64,000 nucleotides of DNA from Propioniferax innocua (GTDB lineage: Bacteria; Actinomycetota; Actinomycetes; Propionibacteriales; Propionibacteriaceae). The notes beneath the pieces were generated by a model that saw only the letters and a program-made list of their open reading frames with translations, did not search any database and was not told the DNA's origin. The stretch spans positions 1,240,001 to 1,304,000 of the forward strand of contig NZ_VFOR01000001.1 in assembly GCF_006716235.1 (NCBI RefSeq). The letters run 5' to 3'. Below are positions 1 to 58,450 of this stretch, piece after piece. The position numbers were made by a program, and so were the translations under genes. Within the stretch, counting starts at the first letter, position 1. Each line of letters begins with the position of its first letter.

Positions 1-58
1 TTACATCGTCCCGGGCCTCGGCGACGCCGGTGACCGTTTGTACGGCCTCGCGGAGTGA
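1..58 (+). CDS. upp: Uracil phosphoribosyltransferase, 3' end only (partial)
   Basis: Only the last 18 codons are in the window, reading in the frame that starts at base 2 and ending at TGA 56-58. The tail YIVPGLGDAGDRLYGLAE matches the C-terminal PRPP/uracil-binding segment (YIVPGLGDAGDR) that is highly conserved in bacterial Upp. Upp converts uracil and PRPP to UMP in pyrimidine salvage. The catalytic core lies upstream of the window, so the assignment rests on this signature alone, but the signature is very specific. Confidence 0.85.
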   Translation, partial: YIVPGLGDAGDRLYGLAE

Positions 59-273
59 CCGGGCCGATCATCGGCTGACCGGGGCCGAACCTGCGCCACC
101 AGTCAGCGGGAACCGACTGTTCCTGCTCATCGTCCTGTGGCGTCGATCTCTTTCGGGCATCGCCACAGCCGGACGCATGCTCATGCTCACCCATGCATCC
201 ATGATGCCGCAGGCGCTGGCGTCGTCGCTGACGCGCCGGACGACACATCGGTGAACGCTGAGGGCACAGCGGC

Positions 274-285
274 TAGCTTGGGAGT
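274..285 (+). promoter_or_regulatory. -10 element of a probable leaderless menB transcript
   Basis: TAGCTT at 274-279 lies six bases before the GTG start of menB. No Shine-Dalgarno sequence is placed usefully. The same TANNNT-N6/7-start arrangement recurs before at least ten other genes here. The rest of 59-285 shows nothing recognisable. Confidence 0.55.
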
Positions 286-1176
286 GTGACTTTTCATAGC
301 GAGGATTGGGAACCCGTCGAGGGGTTCGACTTCACCGACATCACCTACCACCGCGCCAAGGATGTGCCTGCGGTGCGTATCGCGTTCGACCGCCCGGAGG
401 TGCGCAACGCGTTCCGGCCACACACGGTCGATGAGCTCTGCACCGCCCTCGAGGACGCCCGCACCAGCGGAGACATCGGATGCGTCCTGCTCACCGGCAA
501 CGGTCCCTCCCCCAAGGACGGCGGATGGGCCTTCTGCTCCGGCGGCGACCAGCGCATCCGTGGCCGCGACGGCTACCAGTACGCCTCCGGGGAGACCGCC
601 GACAGCGTCGACAAAGCCCGTGCCGGACGCCTCCACATCCTCGAGGCCCAGCGCATCATCCGCTTCATGCCCAAACCGGTGATCGCCATGGTCAACGGTT
701 GGGCCGCAGGCGGCGGGCATTCCCTGCACGTGGTCTGCGATCTCACCCTCGCGAGCGCTGAACACGCGCGCTTCAAACAGACCGATGCCGACGTCGGCTC
801 ATTCGACGGCGGTTTCGGCTCGGCCTACCTCGCCCGTCAGGTGGGTCAGAAGTTCGCCCGCGAGATCTTCTTCCTCGGCGAGACCTACGACGCCGCCGAG
901 GGACAGCGCATGGGCACGGTGAACAAGGTCGTCACCCATGACGAGCTGGAGAAGGTGGGCCTGGAATGGGCCGCGAAGATCTGCGGCAAGTCACCGACCG
1001 CCCAGCGCATGTTGAAGTACGCCTTCAACGCCATCGACGACGGGCTGGTGGGCCAGCAGATCTTCGCCGGGGAGACCACACGTCTGGCGTACATGACCGA
1101 TGAAGCCGTGGAAGGCCGTGACTCATTCCTCGAGAAACGAGCCCCTGACTGGTCGGACTTCCCCTACTACTTCTGA
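286..1176 (+). CDS. menB: 1,4-dihydroxy-2-naphthoyl-CoA synthase
   Basis: MenB closes the second aromatic ring of menaquinone by Dieckmann-type cyclisation of o-succinylbenzoyl-CoA. The 296-residue protein is full length. It has the crotonase fold: SGGDQ at 85-89 within the MenB-specific run CSGGDQRIRGRDGYQYA, the oxyanion-hole segment GWAAGGGHSL at 138-147, and GSFDGGFGSAYLARQVG from 171. These are diagnostic of MenB rather than generic enoyl-CoA hydratases. The start is GTG 286, with a -10-like hexamer six bases upstream, so translation is probably leaderless. No other men genes are in the window. Confidence 0.96.
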   Translation: MTFHSEDWEPVEGFDFTDITYHRAKDVPAVRIAFDRPEVRNAFRPHTVDELCTALEDARTSGDIGCVLLTGNGPSPKDGGWAFCSGGDQRIRGRDGYQYASGETADSVDKARAGRLHILEAQRIIRFMPKPVIAMVNGWAAGGGHSLHVVCDLTLASAEHARFKQTDADVGSFDGGFGSAYLARQVGQKFAREIFFLGETYDAAEGQRMGTVNKVVTHDELEKVGLEWAAKICGKSPTAQRMLKYAFNAIDDGLVGQQIFAGETTRLAYMTDEAVEGRDSFLEKRAPDWSDFPYYF

Positions 1177-1210
1177 ACCGAAGCGCCCCGTCCAGAGGCC
1201 CCTTCCTCCA

Positions 1211-1335
1211 AGCCCACGGCCAGAACCTGCGGACCGCGCCCTGAACCGGGGCTGGCCCCTTCCCCCTAGCCCACGGCCAGAACCTGCGGACCGCGCCCTG
1301 AACCGGGGCTGGCCCCTTCCCCTTGGCCCACAGCC
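1211..1335. repeat. 57-bp tandem repeat, two copies plus a decayed third
   Basis: AGCCCACGGCCAGAACCTGC begins at 1211 and again at 1268, 57 bases apart, and the rest of the unit is nearly identical. A shortened, diverged third start (GCCCACAGCCAG) lies at 1326. The core GGCCAGAACC also occurs reverse-complemented at 1491-1500 inside the next element. Confidence 0.85.
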
Positions 1336-1350
1336 AGGGCGCCCCGAAGG

Positions 1351-1424
1351 CCCTTCCCCAGCAGCCTCTTTTCCGGCAGCCCCTTCCCCAGCAATCTCTT
1401 TTCCGGCAGCCCCTTCCCCAGCAG
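1351..1424. repeat. 30-bp tandem repeat, about 2.5 copies
   Basis: CCCTTCCCCAGCA begins at 1351, 1381 and 1411. The intervening CTCTTTTCCGGCAGC is conserved between copies 1 and 2. The array ends abruptly at GGTTCCTGG. Confidence 0.85.
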
Positions 1425-1471
1425 GTTCCTGGAGTCAGCTCAGGTGGCCCCAAGACGAGGGGCACCACACA

Positions 1472-1567
1472 TAGAAAAACGTTGCGGTCAGGTTCTGGCC
1501 ACAATGCCACCCGAAACGTCTTCATCAGACGCAGATGAGGACCCATTCTGACCGCAATGTTTTTCTA
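1472..1567. repeat. 96-bp element bounded by 20-bp inverted repeats
   Basis: The left arm TAGAAAAACGTTGCGGTCAG (1472-1491) and right arm 1548-1567 are inverted repeats with one mismatch. The interior has a smaller hairpin (TCATC/GATGA around 1523-1539). The shape suits a non-autonomous mobile element or a long structured RNA. I see no clear target-site duplication and no transposase. Confidence 0.6.
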
Positions 1568-1568
1568 C

Positions 1569-1660
1569 ATATATGGGGGGTGCTATATACAGGGGCGCCA
1601 TATATAGGGGTGTCACATATGGGCGGACTCCATATACGGGGCGCCATATACAGGAGGATG
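1569..1660. repeat. Degenerate 14-17 bp ATATAC/GGGGCGCC tandem repeat
   Basis: About six consecutive units resemble ATATACAGGGGCGCC: for example ATATATAGGGGTGTC, ACATATGGGCGGACTCC and ATATACGGGGCGCC. The alternating AT-rich and G-rich composition is unlike the coding DNA nearby. Confidence 0.7.
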
Positions 1661-1715
1661 TCGCCGATGCGAGCTGAGCGTCATTGAGCCAATTTTCTAT
1701 ACGCAGAGGGGAGAT

Positions 1716-1794
1716 TTCTGCACCCATGGGGATAGCGGGACTTCTGCACCCATGGGGATAGCGGGGCTTCTGCACCCATGGGGATAGCGGGACT
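1716..1794. repeat. 26-bp tandem repeat, three copies
   Basis: TTCTGCACCCATGGGGATAG starts at 1716, 1742 and 1768, with only single-base differences between copies. Each unit contains an NcoI-like CCATGG palindrome. Confidence 0.9.
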
Positions 1795-1855
1795 CCGAGA
1801 TCACGCCGAAGATCGCGGTGCCCCCCCCACTCACATGCGCTGAAACCCCGCGCGT

Positions 1856-1897
1856 GCACTGGACACAACAAGAGCACTGGACACAACAGGAGCACTT
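1856..1897. repeat. 18-bp tandem repeat, about 2.3 copies
   Basis: GCACTGGACACAACAAGA at 1856 is followed by GCACTGGACACAACAGGA at 1874 and a partial GCACTT at 1892. Confidence 0.8.
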
Positions 1898-1987
1898 GAG
1901 CCGCAACCGGATGACACCCGGTCGGATGTTCGCTACCCGCGCACAGCCGCCCCTACGTGTTCCAGCGTGGCCGACGCTCCGTGACGT

Positions 1988-2112
1988 ACGCCCGCAGCAG
2001 ACGCGACGTCACCCCGCAACACATGCGACGCACAACCTGCAACACACGCGGCACACGCCCCGTAGCAAATGCGACGTACACCCCGCGGCGCGTGTGACGT
2101 ACAAGTGTCGTA
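1988..2112. repeat. Degenerate ~23-bp repeat, five to six copies
   Basis: Units of the type CCCCGTAGCAAATGCGACGT recur with substitutions (CCCGCAGCAGACGCGACGTC, CCCGCAACACATGCGACGCA, CCCGCGGCGCGTGTGACGTA). The array runs up to about 100 bases before dinB. Confidence 0.65.
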
Positions 2113-2214
2113 CCGCAAGGAGAAGATGCCTTCATGCCACCGCTCACCAACACTCACCGGTCACTCCGCTCACGCATGTCGGCGAATCGACCTCAGCCAG
2201 ATCGTCTCTGAACA

Positions 2215-3513
2215 GTGCGTTCCTGGCCATCGATCCTGCATCTCGATCTGGACGCGTTCTTCGCGTCGGTCGAGCAGCGTGACAAACCTTCACTGCGCGG
2301 AAAACCGGTGATCGTCGGGGGCATCGGCTCCCGTGGCGTCGTCTCCACCGCGTCATACGAGGCCCGTGAATATGGCGTGCATTCGGCGATGGCCACAGCG
2401 GAAGCACGTCGACGCTGCCCTCATGCCGCATACCTCTCAGGGCGTTTCCATGCCTACCGTGAGGCGAGTGAGTCTGTGATGACAGTACTGCGGTCAGTCT
2501 CCCCGCTGGTGGAGCCGTTGAGCCTCGACGAAGCCTTCGTCGATCTCGGAGCCAGCTGGTTGATCCCTTCCCCCAGTGACGATGCCACCGTGCTCCAGCT
2601 GGCTCAGGAGATCCGTGCTGCGGTCTTCGCCGAGACCCGGCTCACAGCCTCAGTCGGCGTAGGAACCTCGAAGTTCATCGCCAAGCTGGCCACGAACCTC
2701 GCCAAACCCGATGGTTGCCACCTCGTACCGGCCGGAACCGAGATCGACCTGTTGGCACCCATGCCCGTGAGTGCCATCCCCGGTGTCGGCCCGGCCACAC
2801 GTGAACGACTGGACCGTATCGGGATCCGCACCATCGCCGATCTCCAGAACGCCCGCCCCGGAGAATTGCGCCGGGAACTCGGGCAGGCCGCTGCGGCCGG
2901 TCTCGTCGAACTCGCGCACGCGCGTGATGACCGCGCCGTCGTGGCACACCGGGATGCCAAATCCATCTCTGTCGAGGACACCTTCGAACACGATGAGACC
3001 GACCGGCGCCAGCTCGAGGCGATCTGTGCCCGTGACGCGGGCGAGGTCGCGCATCGACTCGACCGGGCCGGGCTCTTCGCCCGGACGATCACGGTGAAGG
3101 TGCGCCTCGCCGACTTCACGACGCTGTCTCGTTCGCACACCCTCGACGGTGCCACCGACAGCCCCGAGTCCATCGCTTCCATCGCACGGCAGCTACTCGA
3201 CGGGATCGATGTCTCCGACGGCGTCCGTCTGCTCGGTGTCGGTGTCTCCGGTTTCTCGACCACGGCTCAGGAGGAACTGTTCTCCGTCGGAGAGAAGCCG
3301 ACGTCGACATCAGCGCCGGTGGTGTCGACGCGGGAGCGACGCCGTTCCACGAACTGGCGGCCGGGTGCTGATGTGACCCACGAGATCCATGGGCCGGGCT
3401 GGGTGTGGGGGTCGGGACGCAAGGTGGTCACCGTCAGGTTCGAGACCGCAGACACCGGTCCGGGGCCGGTGCGATCATTCGCCATCGACGACCCGCAACT
3501 CCACCTGGTCTGA
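2215..3513 (+). CDS. dinB: DNA polymerase IV (Y-family translesion polymerase)
   Basis: A Y-family polymerase that bypasses damaged template bases with low fidelity. The 432-residue protein has the catalytic acidic motif DLDAFFASVEQ at 11-21, the second carboxylate motif PLSLDEAFVDL at about 101-111, a helix-hairpin-helix thumb (SAIPGVGPATRERL) and a little-finger domain. The C-terminal segment THEIHGPGWVWGSGRKVVTVRFE is typical of the longer actinobacterial DinB form. Start GTG 2215 is chosen because the family begins only a few residues before DLD. No LexA box is evident upstream. The gene stands alone after the repeat region. Confidence 0.93.
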   Translation: MRSWPSILHLDLDAFFASVEQRDKPSLRGKPVIVGGIGSRGVVSTASYEAREYGVHSAMATAEARRRCPHAAYLSGRFHAYREASESVMTVLRSVSPLVEPLSLDEAFVDLGASWLIPSPSDDATVLQLAQEIRAAVFAETRLTASVGVGTSKFIAKLATNLAKPDGCHLVPAGTEIDLLAPMPVSAIPGVGPATRERLDRIGIRTIADLQNARPGELRRELGQAAAAGLVELAHARDDRAVVAHRDAKSISVEDTFEHDETDRRQLEAICARDAGEVAHRLDRAGLFARTITVKVRLADFTTLSRSHTLDGATDSPESIASIARQLLDGIDVSDGVRLLGVGVSGFSTTAQEELFSVGEKPTSTSAPVVSTRERRRSTNWRPGADVTHEIHGPGWVWGSGRKVVTVRFETADTGPGPVRSFAIDDPQLHLV

Positions 3514-3570
3514 ACCGCCACCGGTGACGGTGATCGTACTCAGTGCGGATTCCGTCCAGACCGGCCGCCC

Positions 3571-3630
3571 CAGGGCTTGCCAACGATCACCCAGGGCCTG
3601 CCAACGACCGCTCAGAGCTTGTCGACGATC
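3571..3630. repeat. 21-bp repeat, three imperfect copies running into a kinase 3' end
   Basis: CAGGGCTTGCCAACGATC begins at 3571, with a near copy at 3592 and a diverged copy CAGAGCTTGTCGACGATC at 3613. The last copy encodes the C-terminal residues of the minus-strand kinase gene. Confidence 0.6.
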
Positions 3631-5207
3631 TTGTCGGCCTCCTTGGCGGTCAGGTCACCGGAGAACCGCATGGACTCGACCTCGAGACGAAACTGCGCGA
3701 GGCCCGCAGTGGTCATCTCGCGCTCGTCCAGGGCCCCCTGGAGCTGCTCTCGGGCCGAGGAGTTCTCGACCTTGGAGATCTCCTCGGCGATCTTCTTCCG
3801 CTGCTTGCTCTGGTCTTTGGTCTCGTTCGACGTCGAACCCTGTCCGTCACCTTCACTCTGGCCGGAACCATCGCCGTTCCCCGAGCCATCGCCCTGACCC
3901 GATCCGTCTCCCTCACCGGATCCGTCACCCTCACCAGAGCCGTCACCCTCACCTGAACCGTCGCCCTCACCGGAGCCGTCACCTTGACCCGGAAGCTTCG
4001 GAAACTCGGTCGGGAACGGGTTCTTCGGCCCTTCGTCGGTCGGTTCCTCAGTGGGTTCTTGGGTGGGTTCGGTGTCGGTCGGCTCCTGCGTCGGTTCACC
4101 CTGCGGCTCGTCGGTGGGTTCTTGGGATGCGCTCGGGGACGCCGTGTCACCGGGCTCGAGAGGACTCTTCCCATCTCGCCCCATGAGGAGCCACGCACCC
4201 AGGCCCAACAGCAACAGCACGAGCAGCAGGGCGACCACCCAGCCCGCTCCGCCTCGACGACGAGGTCGATCGTCATAGGGTTCCAGTTCGTCGAAGTCGT
4301 CCTCCTCGACCTCCACGTACTCCTCTTCCGGCGCAGCTGCAGGCATGACTCTCGTCTGCTGCGCTGTCGTGGCCGGCATCAGCATCGTGGCCGCATCGGG
4401 ATCGACACGCAGCGCCTTGATCTGTTGCAGGATCGCTGGGCCGTCCGGACGCTGCTGCGGTTCCTTCGCGAGCAGGCGGTCGATGAGGTCATCCAAAGCA
4501 GGCGGGACGCCGGTGCGCAACTGCGATGCACGCGGTGGATCGGCATTGATCTGCTGCTGCGCGACCGCAATCGCCTCACCTCGGAACGGTGGCGTGCCAG
4601 TCAACGCTGCCATCAACAGACATCCCAGCGCATACCAGTCAGACTTCTCGGTGGCCTGTTTGCCCATCGCCTGTTCAGGCGACATATAGGCCGCCGTGCC
4701 CATGGCCGTGGCAGGCGCGGTGAGCGCTGCTCCGTGTTGTTGGCCGAGCTGGGCGATACCGAAGTCGACGATCTTGACCGTGCCATCGTGGAACATGACG
4801 TTCCCGGGCTTGATGTCGCGGTGGATCACGCCGACCTTGTGCGCAGCCATGAGGCCCTGGGTGACGCCGAACGCCACTTCCAAGGTCTCGGGAACCGACA
4901 GATGGTCCTCGGCCCTGATGCGTTCTGCAAGGCTGGGCCCGGTCAGCTTCTCCATGACGATGTAGGCGTCCTCGGCGTCGAAGCCAGCGTCGTAGATGCT
5001 GACCACGTGCGGATCGGACAGCCCTGCTGTGGCCACCGCTTCCCGACGGAATCGTTCAAGGGTCGTGGCATCGGAATCACTCGATTCCACCAGTTTGATC
5101 GCCACGTCTCGTTCCAGGCGCGTGTCCCGCGCCGTGAAGACCTGCCCCATGCCACCTTCACCAAGGCGGTCCAGGACGTCGTAGCGATTCGCGATGTTTC
5201 GAGCCAT
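3612..5207 (-). CDS. Transmembrane Ser/Thr protein kinase (PknB-like kinase domain)
   Basis: A eukaryotic-type Hanks kinase. From start ATG 5207 (531 aa): P-loop GEGGMG at 16-21, lysine K38 (VAIK), catalytic HRDIKPGN from about 129, DFG near 149, activation segment GTAAYMSPEQ. A negatively charged juxtamembrane stretch precedes one membrane helix at about 321-342. The extracytoplasmic part begins with a Pro/Thr/Glu-rich linker (TEPTQEPTEEPTDEG), then a (GDGSGE)n repeat, then a helical C-terminal segment of about 60 residues. There are no PASTA repeats, so the ligand is unknown. An in-frame GTG at 5234 would add nine residues (MGCRVIIAP). It converges on dinB and lies just downstream of lgt on the same strand. 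Confidence 0.9.
   Translation of the reverse strand: MARNIANRYDVLDRLGEGGMGQVFTARDTRLERDVAIKLVESSDSDATTLERFRREAVATAGLSDPHVVSIYDAGFDAEDAYIVMEKLTGPSLAERIRAEDHLSVPETLEVAFGVTQGLMAAHKVGVIHRDIKPGNVMFHDGTVKIVDFGIAQLGQQHGAALTAPATAMGTAAYMSPEQAMGKQATEKSDWYALGCLLMAALTGTPPFRGEAIAVAQQQINADPPRASQLRTGVPPALDDLIDRLLAKEPQQRPDGPAILQQIKALRVDPDAATMLMPATTAQQTRVMPAAAPEEEYVEVEEDDFDELEPYDDRPRRRGGAGWVVALLLVLLLLGLGAWLLMGRDGKSPLEPGDTASPSASQEPTDEPQGEPTQEPTDTEPTQEPTEEPTDEGPKNPFPTEFPKLPGQGDGSGEGDGSGEGDGSGEGDGSGEGDGSGQGDGSGNGDGSGQSEGDGQGSTSNETKDQSKQRKKIAEEISKVENSSAREQLQGALDEREMTTAGLAQFRLEVESMRFSGDLTAKEADKIVDKL
3850..3990. repeat. In-gene 18-bp coding repeat for (GDGSGE)n
   Basis: In-frame 18-bp units within the kinase gene encode seven or so GDGSGE/GDGSGQ/GDGSGN blocks. 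They form a flexible acidic spacer outside the membrane and are likely to vary in number between strains. Confidence 0.75.
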
Positions 5208-39044: not shown

Positions 39045-41094
39045 GTCGACGACCACCGCACCCATGTCGATGGTGTGCACACCCGAGGGCAACCTCGACA
39101 CCTCCTACACCCAGCGTCAGGGTCTGGCTCGGATCGGTTCGGTTGCGCGCACCTCGCTGAGCGACAGCGAGACCGCGTGGCGTGAAACCGCGTCAGCGGC
39201 CCAGGACGTGGCACGGCTCATCCGGGAACGACTCGACTCCCTGCTCGGCACCGAGGGATGGAGCGGCCGTGGCGCCGACGCCTTCCGCTCGATGCTGGAC
39301 GACGACCTGCTGGCCCATCTCGATGCCTACGCCGAGAGTGCCGAGGCGATGGCCGAGAACCTCAAACCCATCACCAGTTCAGCCGATTCGGCGGCCGAGA
39401 CCGCGTCGAGCAATGACGTGCCGTGGGACGTGGACGTGGCATGGTCGGTTGAGCGTGTCGACCCCGAGCGGTCCCTCTGGGGGCATCTCGATGAGTTCTT
39501 CACCGGTGACGACGACGCCTACGAGGAAGCCAAGGAGAACGCTCCCTACAACGTTCTGAACGGCGGACGCTCGGTGGTCAGGGAGGTCGAGAAGAACACC
39601 TGGGAGCAGATCCGCGCCCAGAGCCAGGCCGCTGCGATGCCTGCGGAGTACGCCGCCACCGGCACCCCGGTGAGTTCCGAGGTCAACCAGTTCGATCACG
39701 CGATGGAGAGCTTGGGACTCAACAGCGCCCAGCGATCCGCCGTCCAGGCCGCTGCGAGTGACACCGATGCGCAACTTGCCGCGTTCAAGCCCGCCGAGAT
39801 CAAGGAGTTCTCCTTCCGCGGCGGCCGTTACGCCGCAGAGACCCCCACCGGGGTTGCCCCCGACGTGGCCCCGAGCAGCGTCGCCCCCTCGGCCTCCGGC
39901 GGAAGCCCAACCGGAACATCCCCCATCCCCGCTTCGGCAGGCAACGGATTTGGTGACGGGCCCGGTGCGGCCCTGCCTGGTGCCGGCGGCCCCAACACCG
40001 ACCTTCCCGGCACCAACGGCCCCGGTCTGAATGGCCCTGGCCTGAATGGCCCTGGCCTGAATGACCCCGGTCTGAATGACCCTGGCCTGAATGACCCCGG
40101 TCTGAATGACACGGGACCACAGGTGAGCGGCCCCGAGATGGACGTCCCCGGCGCCTTCGGCCCGGACGCCACCGTTCCGGGAGGCATGCCCCCCGGGGTG
40201 AGCAACCCCGACCCGTCGATCAGCCCCGGCACTTCGATCAGCCCCGACACTTCAATCAGCCCCCACAATGACACGCTGCCGGGAGTCGATCTCGATCACG
40301 ACGGCCCCCGGGATCCACAGAAGATCGGGGTGCCGCCCACCACGGTGGAGGCCGGCGCGCCGACTGCCCCCACCGGCCCCATGCCGGGAACGATCTCGCC
40401 CAACGGACCGCTCGTGGGCACCCCGCATCCGATCACCGGCCCCGGCGCCGGAGCACCCACGCTCACTCCGGGCGTCCCGGGACTCACTCCCCTGTCCTCC
40501 GGAGGTGCCATGTCACACGGAGGAACGGGGACGACCCCGCAGCCCCATGCCATGGGCGGGCACCCGGCGTCAGTCCGAGGCGCACAGGGATCCTCGTTCG
40601 GCGGATCGGGAGCCGGCACTCGAGTCGGCGGTTTCGGATTCGGCAACACCGCTCACGGCAACTCCGGCCCCGGATCCGGCCCAGGAAATGCTGCGGGCAG
40701 GGGACACCTCCCCGGCGGTTCCGGAAGCAGCACCGGACCGGGAACCGCCGCCATCAAGGGCCCCTTGGCCGGCGGATCGGGAACCGGCTTCGGCGGTTCT
40801 GGAGCGGGCGCTTCCCCGGTGGTCGGTCGCGGCACCTCGTTCACCACCGGCCCATTGGGTCGCGGCATCGTGAACCCCGGCATGGTCGGCCCGATGGCCG
40901 GCCCCGGCGGCGCTCCCGGCGCCGGTGGCGTCGGTGGCGCCGGTGGCATCGGTGGCGCCGGGGGCGCCGGGGCACCCATGGCACCCATGGGCGCACGCGG
41001 CGGTGGCCGCAACACCGAAGAGAAGTCGCAGACGCGCGTCAACAACTGGCTCGAAGAGGATCAGGAGACCTGGGAGGCCGCAGCCCGAGACTGA
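39037..41094 (+). CDS. Large repeat-rich WXG-domain ESX substrate
   Basis: A 685-residue protein. Residues 1-270 are helical, with W75-S-G77 (EGWSGRGADAFRSML) as a WXG turn. Residues about 270-650 are Gly/Pro/Asn-rich and disordered, including six exact GLNGP/GLNDP blocks and SISPGTSISPDTSISP. The C-terminus NNWLEEDQETWEAAARD is a short conserved ending seen on many actinobacterial PPE-like ESX proteins. The layout (helical N-domain, low-complexity tail) is that of a PPE-like surface protein. It likely exports with the coupled 134-residue partner. It overlaps aat by 34 bases, tail to tail. Confidence 0.82.
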   Translation: MPESTTTAPMSMVCTPEGNLDTSYTQRQGLARIGSVARTSLSDSETAWRETASAAQDVARLIRERLDSLLGTEGWSGRGADAFRSMLDDDLLAHLDAYAESAEAMAENLKPITSSADSAAETASSNDVPWDVDVAWSVERVDPERSLWGHLDEFFTGDDDAYEEAKENAPYNVLNGGRSVVREVEKNTWEQIRAQSQAAAMPAEYAATGTPVSSEVNQFDHAMESLGLNSAQRSAVQAAASDTDAQLAAFKPAEIKEFSFRGGRYAAETPTGVAPDVAPSSVAPSASGGSPTGTSPIPASAGNGFGDGPGAALPGAGGPNTDLPGTNGPGLNGPGLNGPGLNDPGLNDPGLNDPGLNDTGPQVSGPEMDVPGAFGPDATVPGGMPPGVSNPDPSISPGTSISPDTSISPHNDTLPGVDLDHDGPRDPQKIGVPPTTVEAGAPTAPTGPMPGTISPNGPLVGTPHPITGPGAGAPTLTPGVPGLTPLSSGGAMSHGGTGTTPQPHAMGGHPASVRGAQGSSFGGSGAGTRVGGFGFGNTAHGNSGPGSGPGNAAGRGHLPGGSGSSTGPGTAAIKGPLAGGSGTGFGGSGAGASPVVGRGTSFTTGPLGRGIVNPGMVGPMAGPGGAPGAGGVGGAGGIGGAGGAGAPMAPMGARGGGRNTEEKSQTRVNNWLEEDQETWEAAARD
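40021..40110. repeat. 15-bp in-frame tandem repeat, six copies
   Basis: Six consecutive units like CCTGGCCTGAATGAC encode (P)GLNG/GLND blocks. Only third-base and Gly/Asp changes separate them, so copy number may vary. Confidence 0.9.
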
Positions 41095-48679: not shown

Positions 48680-49654
48680 GTGACCACCCCCGACTCCCCC
48701 GGTACGCACGACGCGACCGAGCTCCGCAGTGGAGCGTTGTACGCCATCGGCGCCTACGGCCTGTGGGCTCTGTTGCCCCTGCTGTTCGTCTTCATCGAGG
48801 CCGGCCCCATCGAGATCCTGGCGATCCGGGTCGTGTTCTCGGTCTTCTTCTGTCTGCTGCTGATGCAGCTCGTCGGCCGTTGGAGCCATCTGCGCGAGGC
48901 CGTCGCATCACGGGAGACGGTCGGTTGGCTGTCACTCGCCTCTCTACTGATGGGCACCAATTGGTTGTGCTTCATCTTCGCCACCACCACCGGTCGTGTG
49001 CTCGAGGCCTCCTTGGCGTACTTCATCAACCCGTTGATGACCGTGCTGTTGAGCGTTCTGGTTCTCCGGGAACGGCTTCGCATCCTGCAGTGGGTGGCCA
49101 TTGGGATCGGCGTGGCCGCCGTGGTCGTCATGACCGTCGCCTACGGCACGCTGCCCCTTCTCTCCCTGCTCATGGCCACGTCATTCGCCATCTATGGCCT
49201 GGTGAAACGGCGCCTGGGACGTTCGACGGCCCGCCCTTTGGGCGCCATTCCGGGGCTGACACTGGAGACTCTGTTCCTGTTGGCACCCGCGCTGATCGCG
49301 GTGGTCCTGCTCTGGGCCCGCGGCGATCTGGTGACCGGATCCACCGGGTGGTTGTTGCCGACGCTGCTGGCCGGGACCGGCGTCCTGACCGCGGTTCCCC
49401 TGATCTTCTTCGCCGCTGCTGCTTCACGCATCCCGCTCTCGTGGGTCGGGATGTTCCAGTACATCGCTCCGATCGGGCAGTTCATCATCGGCTGGGGCGT
49501 CCTCGGCGAGCCCATGCCGGCGTCCCGGTGGCTGGGTTTCGCGATCGTCTGGGTCGCGGTGCTGGTTTTCATCGGCGACGTGGCTCTGCGACGCCGCGAG
49601 CGTCAGCGCCAGCTTGACGTTGAGCCGCGTCTGCCCGGCACAACGCAGAACTGA
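48680..49654 (+). CDS. rarD: RarD-like EamA family transporter
   Basis: A drug/metabolite transporter superfamily protein of 324 residues with ten membrane helices in two EamA repeats. RarD features: GALYAIGAYGLWALLPLLF, MGTNWLCFIFATTTGRVLEASLAYFINPLMTVLLSVLVLRERL and LIFFAAAASRIPLSWVGMFQYIAPIGQFIIGW. RarD of E. coli is tied to chloramphenicol sensitivity; the substrate is unknown. The last 11 residues (VEPRLPGTTQN) are encoded by the first copy of an 83-bp tandem repeat that continues downstream. Confidence 0.9.
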   Translation: MTTPDSPGTHDATELRSGALYAIGAYGLWALLPLLFVFIEAGPIEILAIRVVFSVFFCLLLMQLVGRWSHLREAVASRETVGWLSLASLLMGTNWLCFIFATTTGRVLEASLAYFINPLMTVLLSVLVLRERLRILQWVAIGIGVAAVVVMTVAYGTLPLLSLLMATSFAIYGLVKRRLGRSTARPLGAIPGLTLETLFLLAPALIAVVLLWARGDLVTGSTGWLLPTLLAGTGVLTAVPLIFFAAAASRIPLSWVGMFQYIAPIGQFIIGWGVLGEPMPASRWLGFAIVWVAVLVFIGDVALRRRERQRQLDVEPRLPGTTQN

Positions 49655-49983
49655 ACTGCTGTCAGCGCCACCCAAACCAGCCACCCCACCCCACCTCTAC
49701 GTAAAGCCGCGTCTGCCCGGCACAACGCAGAGGCAGACGGGTGACAGCAGCCACCCAAACCAGCCACCACACCCCACCTCTACGTAAAGCCGCATCTACC
49801 CGGCACAACGCAGAGGCAGACGGGTGACAGCAGCCACCCAAACCAGCCACCACACCCCACCTCTACGTAAAGCCGCATCTACCCGGCACAACGCAGAGGC
49901 AGACGGGTGACAGCAGCCACCCAAACCAGCCACCACACCCCACCTCTACGTAAAGCCGCGTCTGCCCGGCACAACGCAGAGGT
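49617..49983. repeat. 83-bp tandem repeat, about 4.4 copies
   Basis: CCCGGCACAACGCAG recurs with its first base at about 49634, 49716, 49799, 49882 and 49965: a spacing of 82, then 83 three times. Copies 2-4 are almost identical and carry CCACCCAAACCAGCCACCAC. Each unit contains an imperfect palindrome CCTCTACGT...GCCG/CGGC...ACGCAGAGG. Copy 1 is diverged, reads as the rarD C-terminus and provides its stop. The 397-bp space up to the next gene holds only this array and a 68-bp leader. Confidence 0.95.
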
Positions 49984-50039
49984 AGGCGGATGGCAAGAGC
50001 GAGCAGTGGCCGACCGAATGGCAGGGGTGGAAGAACCCC

Positions 50040-58191: not shown

Positions 58192-58204
58192 CCTCCTGAG
58201 CATG

Positions 58205-58327
58205 CTCCACCTCTACGTTGCGCCGGGCAGACACGGCACAACGTAGAGACAGCACCAGACCAGGCCAGACGAAGACCCTCCACTCCTGCGTTGTGCCGCG
58301 CAGACGCGGCTCAACGTAGAGGTGGAG
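58205..58327. repeat. Pair of palindromic repeats bounded by a 16-bp inverted repeat
   Basis: CTCCACCTCTACGTTG (58205-58220) is inverted exactly at 58312-58327. Inside are two smaller palindromes: CTCTACGTTGCGCCG/CGGCACAACGTAGAG (58211-58225/58234-58248) and 58283-58300/58305-58321. The units are related to the 83-bp repeat at 49617-49983, so this is a dispersed family. Confidence 0.85.
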
Positions 58328-58366
58328 CCGACCCGATCGGGCTTCAGCGCAGGAGCGGAGACGCGT

Positions 58367-58394
58367 GGAGGCCCGACCGTGCGGTCGGGCCTCC
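58367..58394. terminator. Hairpin between nadC and phoX
   Basis: GGAGGCCCGACCG and CGGTCGGGCCTCC form a 13-bp stem with almost no spacer (loop of 2-4 bases). It can terminate the minus-strand phosphatase transcript and the nad operon. Confidence 0.75.
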
Positions 58395-58450
58395 AGCAGC
58401 TCACGGAACAGATCCCGGTAGCAGAGCCGCTCCCGGGAGCCGATCGAGGA

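Follow-up and report, generated by a model that had tools for sequence, protein, structure and literature searches.

A tandem-repeat patchwork between menB and dinB of Propioniferax innocua is one of 18 sites around a dispersed paired-palindrome element

Introduction

Among described systems, REPINs, doublets of REP sequences that form hairpins, come closest in architecture to the element reported here. As far as the accessible text of their description goes, they consist of two inverted conserved cores set apart by a constant distance, 71 bp in the case of GI doublets. What counts in the variable spacer between the cores is its length and its capacity to form a hairpin (Bertels and Rainey, 2011; PMC3116915). 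GTAG- and CGTC-tagged REPs form head-to-head dimers of palindromes with spacers of mostly 20-100 bp, and the CGTC families are apparently without a dedicated transposase, again going by the accessible part of the source (PMC3733652). The origin of tandem repeats, in turn, is difficult to observe, as arrays usually come to notice only once they have formed. ERIC, BOX, Correia and similar elements are intergenic, imperfectly palindromic and in the 100-150 bp class, as is the element here; their sequence and internal layout differ from it. To our knowledge, no systematic link between these elements and flanking minisatellites has been reported.

Here we describe the intergenic region between a menB-like and a dinB-like gene of Propioniferax innocua, located in a window of 64,000 nucleotides (the whole stretch of DNA that was analysed). 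The repeat patchwork in this region is genuine and represents one of 18 sites around a paired-palindrome element that we did not find described. Like REPINs, the element is intergenic and dispersed and has mirror-arranged palindromic cores at a fixed distance, a variable spacer and the potential to form a hairpin (PMC3116915). In contrast to REPINs, it occurs in 18 copies instead of hundreds, in a genome that has neither a Y1/RAYT transposase over the cut-off nor a clear excess of single intergenic palindromes, its inner arms do not covary, and tandem arrays are found in the intergenic region of every copy. With the REP dimers it shares the pairing of palindromes and, with the CGTC families, the apparent lack of a dedicated transposase, whereas its halves are palindromes of ~23-27 bp that carry no GTAG tag, the distance between them does not vary among the 18 copies, and it has additional A/T tracts and C-rich ends (compared with what is accessible of PMC3733652). 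The Fis-bound recombinational enhancer of Hin, judged by the accessible text (PMC3798978), is similar only in the way it works, having two dimer-binding sites at a fixed helical phase; the element is not a member of that system and its copies are dispersed. Imperfect terminal inverted repeats of the CCCCATACAT type recall MITEs, as do the clean borders of one subfamily (A) next to a longer shared right flank in another (B), but neither a target-site duplication nor an autonomous parent with the same ends was found. In the accessible literature on palindromic elements, minisatellites, REPINs in Actinobacteria and slippage hotspots, which included few subscription papers, neither the element nor a link between it and arrays is described.

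Results

The menB-dinB intergenic region

The interval (window positions 1177-2214) is bordered on the left by a menB-like gene of the enoyl-CoA hydratase/isomerase family (286-1176, forward strand; PF00378), whose product is ~83% identical to the proteins of three relatives, and on the right by a dinB-like gene for a Y-family DNA polymerase (2215-3513, forward strand; PF00817, PF11799). A preliminary description had listed six tandem-repeat families and an inverted repeat in this region, and all of them were recovered using TRF and a repeat finder. Six merged tandem arrays cover 517 of the 1038 bp, compared with a mean of 0.007 arrays and a maximum of 1 in 300 dinucleotide-preserving shuffles.

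In the left flank of the element, TRF reported a 57-bp unit in 2.5 copies (1197-1337) and a 30-bp unit in 2.5 copies (1351-1424), the latter with a 15-bp sub-period (1361-1415). The right flank contains a 26-bp unit in 3.0 copies (1716-1794), an 18-bp unit in 2.3 copies (1856-1896) and a degenerate 22/23-bp unit in 3.0/4.6 copies (1983-2086). The remaining array, a 15-bp unit in 5.1 copies (1577-1654), starts within the last bases of the element and resembles the element's own end: the repeat finder matched GGGGCACCACACATAGA of the outer end (1459-1475) with GGGGCGCCATATATAGG. This likeness departs from the earlier view that the families are mutually unrelated apart from one shared, inverted sequence, GGCCAGAACC. 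The latter is indeed present as a 12-nt inverted match between the 57-bp array (1218-1229 and 1275-1286) and the element (1489-1500); in the array, the inverted 12-nt GGCCAGAACCTG common to both could be due to chance or be a captured piece of the element. The inverted repeat, described before as an element of 96 bp, was confirmed at 1472-1567, with outer arms of 20 nt that are 95% complementary, but it is only the core of a longer, dispersed unit (1459-1580).

In 43 other loci examined, menB lies near dinB in three, in divergent orientation in each. The gap measures 77 bp in L095, L012 has a called gene between menB and dinB, and the calls in L009 are untrustworthy, one overlapping menB. Since the two genes are divergent wherever they are close in these loci, there is no orthologous intergenic region for comparison. 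The right-hand neighbour dinB is probably incidental, as had been supposed: going by family names and our own reading, the 36 genes flanking the 18 copies have no common theme.

Elsewhere in the window, adjacent arrays with 15/30/45-bp and 18-bp periods occur without the element at 40020-40110 and 40206-40267. With periods that are multiples of three, they are perhaps coding.

A dispersed element with fixed geometry

When the interval was searched against its own genome, the inverted repeat matched at dispersed places. DNA search yielded six further places with 73-83% identity, and the matches were limited to window positions ~1457-1595, save for one 28-bp match elsewhere. A covariance model of seven copies (R1) found 17 places at E ≤ 1, and a pattern search for palindromes, which occur as pairs at a constant offset, revealed an 18th copy. 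The sequence-only model R2, built from the 18 copies and therefore matching them by construction, returned these 18 places and no others at E ≤ 5, with hits on both strands in each case. The lowest score among them was 59 bits, with nothing weaker and no truncated relics at E ≤ 5; of 1112 first-look candidates, 150 were scored in this search, which may therefore have overlooked weaker copies. Using cmsearch with default filters on a 464-kb sample including the window, only the window copy was matched. The 2.79-Mb genome holds the 18 copies on contigs C1 and C2, with none found on the remaining 332 kb, and all 18 are intergenic according to gene calls made with our own codon-usage script.

The window copy (1459-1580, forward strand; found by sequence searches and both models, 92.8 bits with R2) is ~121 bp long, belongs to subfamily A and has the ends GGGGCACCACACAT and ATATATGGGGGG. 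Its left palindrome GGTCAGGTTCTGGCC (1486-1500) and its right palindrome GGACCCATTCTGACC (1539-1553) have two mismatches each to GGWCAGANNCTGWCC, and the second starts exactly 53 bp after the start of the first. The left outer arm, an A-tract with a half-site (1472-1491, forward strand), is complementary to the right outer arm, a half-site with a T-tract (1548-1567, forward strand).

The same geometry was found throughout: in 18 of 18 copies the GGWCAGANNCTGWCC-like palindromes start 53 bp apart, which is about five helical turns, and at every locus 53 bp was the best of the spacings from 40 to 69 (1 kb scanned per locus). For comparison, the Fis sites in the Hin enhancer are spaced by 48 bp. 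Individual copies deviate from the motif, with 21-25 of its 26 positions matched by the two palindromes taken together. In window orientation, the consensus starts with a C/G-rich end, followed by a CCATACAT-like box, a tract of A5 (or T5), RTTGAGGWCAGANNCTGWCCKCAA and 26 unconserved bases; beyond this spacer follows roughly the mirror image of the left-hand series, and the ends are CCCCATACAT-like. Identity between groups amounts to 67% in the cores, 52% in the outer parts and 32% in the spacer (shuffles: 26%). As the spacer is near-random and the spacing is nevertheless constant, its length is kept and its sequence is not.

Grouping by eye assigned seven copies to subfamily A and five copies, with T5 on the left, to subfamily B, leaving six ungrouped. 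The spacers are related in subfamilies A and B (59% identical within groups), and the ungrouped copies partly share sequence, for example L180 and L188. Palindrome matches with 0-1 mismatches occur at 30 places, 16 of which have a partner at 53 bp. The 14 without a partner look like chance, since they are mostly inside called genes (11 of 14) and none matches R2. With up to two mismatches, there are at least 183 forward and at least 182 reverse matches in the genome, compared with 63 and 75 for the reversed pattern; this excess beyond the 18 elements is perhaps a matter of codon composition.

Tandem arrays accompany every copy

The preliminary description had overlooked that its inverted repeat exists in 18 copies and that arrays are present in the intergenic region of all 18. 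At a TRF score of at least 50, this compares with 21 of 169 other intergenic regions (Fisher p = 1.2e-14), each counted once, as was the window copy of the element, with a net (array-free) length of 100-1100 bp and drawn from 20 grid stretches and from what remained of the window and of the 18 element loci. Applying the same net-length window to both groups, which omits two element regions under 100 bp net, resulted in 16/16 versus 21/169 (p = 2.8e-13). At higher TRF scores, arrays were found in 16/18 element regions versus 16/172 others (score 80) and in 13/18 versus 9/173 (score at least 120). The array density is 3.1 per kb in element regions and 0.5 per kb in the others, a few regions being counted twice here owing to the overlap of L197 with the window and of L187 with L204. 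An array wholly outside the element was present in 17 of the 18 regions at score 50, and in 14, 12 and 10 at scores 80, 100 and 120. These data demonstrate a strong association of the element with arrays.

The position of the arrays is less distinctive. Their median distance to the element is 65 bp versus 107 bp for random placement (p ~0.05), a weak bias. The direction of the replication fork was derived from dnaA (C2:1,005,756), a dif-like site with three mismatches (C1:169,578) and the GC skew, which changes sign near this site. On this basis, 25 arrays lie fork-downstream and 18 upstream (binomial p 0.36), covering 2306 of 5524 bp and 1460 of 5379 bp, respectively. Near the dif-like site and in the 360-500 kb part of C2, the copies seem to lie closer together, an apparent clustering that was noticed only afterwards; the idea of a ter- or ori-specific site was considered and rejected.

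Over all sampled DNA, the genome has 15.7 arrays per 100 kb, compared with 15.0 in ten relatives (400 kb). Intergenic arrays number 31 in 46.8 kb here (window included) versus 13 in 45.9 kb in the ten relatives, and these 31 are part of 73 arrays in the 464-kb sample. Being about twice as common as in relatives, the intergenic arrays indicate that some genome-wide proneness exists. Loss of mismatch repair was rejected as a general cause, since the genome has a NucS gene over the cut-off, which means that loss of NucS is not the reason for the arrays, and the overall array density is like that of the ten relatives. NucS is not known to act on slippage loops.

The arrays grew after the element had arrived

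Outside the element, nine of 43 arrays match the end of their own element (score at least 9), compared with 2% using shuffled ends. Arrays enter seven of the 18 elements, 5-24 bp deep, and reach the palindromes in none. Subfamily B allows a comparison between paralogues of one genome: with the same borders, a 21/22-bp unit, counted with up to three substitutions, is present in two copies in L181, in three in L186 and in six in L184. In L193 and L195 no such unit was found at this threshold, and one diverged copy can be seen by eye. L186 has, in addition, a clear 59-bp array of 2.4 copies made of element end and flank, which is absent from L181, L184 and L195; in L193, a degenerate threefold copy lies at the same place (by eye). 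The own-end matches, the palindromes that are never reached and the differing unit numbers in subfamily B show that arrays arose and grew with the element already in place, and did so more than once.

Mobility and distribution

Homology between copies of subfamily A stops within ~14 bp of the element, whereas copies of subfamily B share sequence from about -8 to about +200, broken by arrays. Because the copies of a subfamily are alike by descent and lie at unrelated sites, the element has been copied to new places; its dispersal is thereby shown. The genome-wide search for a transposase covered the Y1/RAYT type (PF01797), for which the best hit reached 11.7 bits and none exceeded the cut-off of 23; of 14 control genomes, ten were matched, six over the cut-off. 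No transposase was found among the 36 genes flanking the copies, and for target-site duplications with lengths of 3, 4, 5, 6 and 8 no direct repeat exceeded random partner pairing. One end motif (up to three mismatches) gave 23 matches, 22 of them inside elements and distributed over 16 of the 18 copies; the 23rd, with three mismatches, is on C4. Since two elements and 14 of the 36 ends were unmatched by this motif, a diverged parent could be missed.

In relatives, R1 matched none of 196 other genomes of the family at E ≤ 0.01. R2 gave partial matches of 18-21 bits in six of 393 other genomes of the class (E 0.0008-0.009), where about four are expected by chance. Because of their strict filters, both searches miss weak matches. 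No convincing relative was found among the 196 family and 393 class genomes. By DinB, the nearest named relatives (~60% identical) are headed by Propionibacteriaceae, and the 56 relatives that were searched all belong to genera other than that of the window. An origin from phages or plasmids was discarded, blastn against both collections being without a match at E ≤ 0.01; six viral contigs have an exact end motif, and the element was absent from all six stretches examined. The element family has so far been seen only in this genome.

Fold and neighbouring genes

The element folds better than its shuffles on both strands (z -5.05 and -5.25). Covariation in the outer arms was mixed, with two of five measures reached by only 8 and 9 of 500 shuffles and the other three unremarkable (50, 121 and 87 of 500). 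Pairing and covariation of the inner arms were no better than in shuffles, and the local palindromes had no excess of covariation over shuffles. A known structured RNA was ruled out for window positions 1-4000, which had no Rfam match at E ≤ 1.

The gene pairs around the copies are convergent in five cases, divergent in five and co-directional in eight; in 79 other regions with a net length of at least 200, the numbers are 10, 26 and 43. Convergent pairs are therefore somewhat commoner around the copies (5/18 versus 10/79, p 0.15). An intrinsic terminator was nevertheless rejected, as the gene orientations fit poorly with five copies between divergent genes. Likewise, a regulon was dismissed for want of a visible common theme in the flanking genes, 34 of 36 of which had a family match over the cut-off; the exceptions are the right-hand gene of L190, without a match, and the left-hand gene of L194, with a match below the cut-off.

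Other repeats were also noticed in this genome. A second, unrelated REP-like palindrome of ~46-50 bp (CCACCTCTACGTNGTGCCGCGTCTGCCCGGCANAACGTCAAGGTGG-like) is dispersed over window positions 49623-49989 and 58192-58450 and loci L207, L208, L209, L216, L194 and L187, and is itself contained in the array unit, which measures 83 bp (4.4 copies) in the window and 71, 83 and 93 bp at loci L208 and L216. A terminator-like hairpin of ~42-46 bp, GGACCTGAGGGTTTGTGGCC or its mirror, is common to three intergenic regions (L209 661-884 and 1848-2118; L210 3742-3886). Finally, two stretches of L200 (12625-14489 and 14901-15122) have 86 bp in common at 96.5% and lie in a part with few called genes; our guess is the remnant of an insertion sequence.

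Discussion

The interpretation that we favour, with a probability of about one half, is that the element is a REPIN-like, once-mobile, protein-bound palindrome that makes adjacent DNA prone to tandem duplication. While the association with arrays is observed, protein binding and a causal role are what we infer from it. One copy of a dispersed, genome-specific element of ~121 bp lies at the heart of the interval, and its paired palindromes may serve as a DNA recognition site for a dimeric or tetrameric protein, either a factor of the host or the trans-acting enzyme behind the dispersal of the element. A block formed by nucleoprotein or a cruciform, or else nicks at the element ends, could cause replication to stall or re-prime just outside the palindromes, and the adjacent DNA would be duplicated in tandem and then expand by slippage. 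With local sequence differing from site to site, mutually unrelated arrays would result. Of several conceivable mechanisms, block or nicking followed by slippage is the most likely one. Because REPINs also hold a fixed spacing, the spacing alone is no proof of a host function. Several findings speak against our reading: the arrays are biased only weakly towards the element and have no clear fork-side preference, so that the fork block is not directly supported; covariation is not above shuffles in the inner arms and local palindromes and is unremarkable in three of five outer-arm measures; target-site duplications stay at the random level; and some proneness to arrays is genome-wide. Two ideas of the preliminary description find partial support here: unit numbers that differ between paralogous flanks agree with repeated local duplication, as expected from slippage or recombination, and a dispersed element of constant architecture in the middle of the interval fits a site with a structural role.

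Alternatively, for a purely selfish REPIN- or MITE-like element, the spacing would serve the transposition complex, and the arrays would be scars of transposition or aborted excision without any host function. Subfamily A, where homology ends within ~14 bp, does look like a movable unit, some arrays match element ends, and REPINs too pair two inverted conserved cores at a set distance around a variable spacer (accessible text of PMC3116915). However, the genome has no Y1/RAYT-type transposase over the cut-off and none of any kind among the 36 flanking genes, end-motif matches are confined to elements in 22 of 23 cases without truncated relics at E ≤ 5, target-site duplications do not exceed random, and the only 18 copies are strongly diverged, which leaves us rather doubtful about this explanation. 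We consider it improbable that there is no causal link at all and that elements and arrays both pile up in intergenic regions that tolerate insertions and have no regulatory content. Such a coincidence would be in line with the arrays in other intergenic regions (31/73 in the 464-kb sample, window included) and with the weak distance bias, but it is at odds with the net-length-matched comparison (16/16 versus 21/169), with the 9/43 arrays that match their own element's end and with arrays in subfamily B that arose within and beside a homologous unit.

The layout of A-tract, stem and T-tract, the strong fold on both strands with some covariation in the outer arms and the somewhat commoner convergent gene pairs could point to the RNA level, where the element would act as a bidirectional intrinsic terminator or a post-transcriptional structured RNA. 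This is very unlikely in view of the copies between divergent genes, equal in number to the convergent ones, the T5 that replaces A5 on the left in subfamily B and breaks that part of the stem, a spacing that is exact to the base despite a near-random spacer, and the lack of an Rfam match at E ≤ 1 in window positions 1-4000. Accordingly, the element is probably a DNA site recognised by a protein rather than an RNA. An assembly artefact or chance hardly comes into question with one architecture at 18 loci and six arrays where shuffles have 0.007.

Protein-bound, duplication-promoting palindromes would be of wider interest, as the 18 paralogous sites of one genome present different stages of arrays beside a common sequence: one (by eye), two, three and six copies of a flanking unit, arrays of the element's own end and arrays of unrelated units. 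This suggests the palindrome as a breeding spot for new repeats. In its boldest form, which we put forward only tentatively, the element would be a minisatellite-creating bacterial DNA element, a nucleoprotein site of fixed geometry that turns any adjacent DNA into new tandem arrays, with the array-rich intergenic regions as its footprints. If the element is the cause, the birth of minisatellites would become testable on a plasmid with a 121-bp cassette; if it is not, the genome of P. innocua would still contain a sharply defined family of palindromic elements with an invariant 53-bp geometry.
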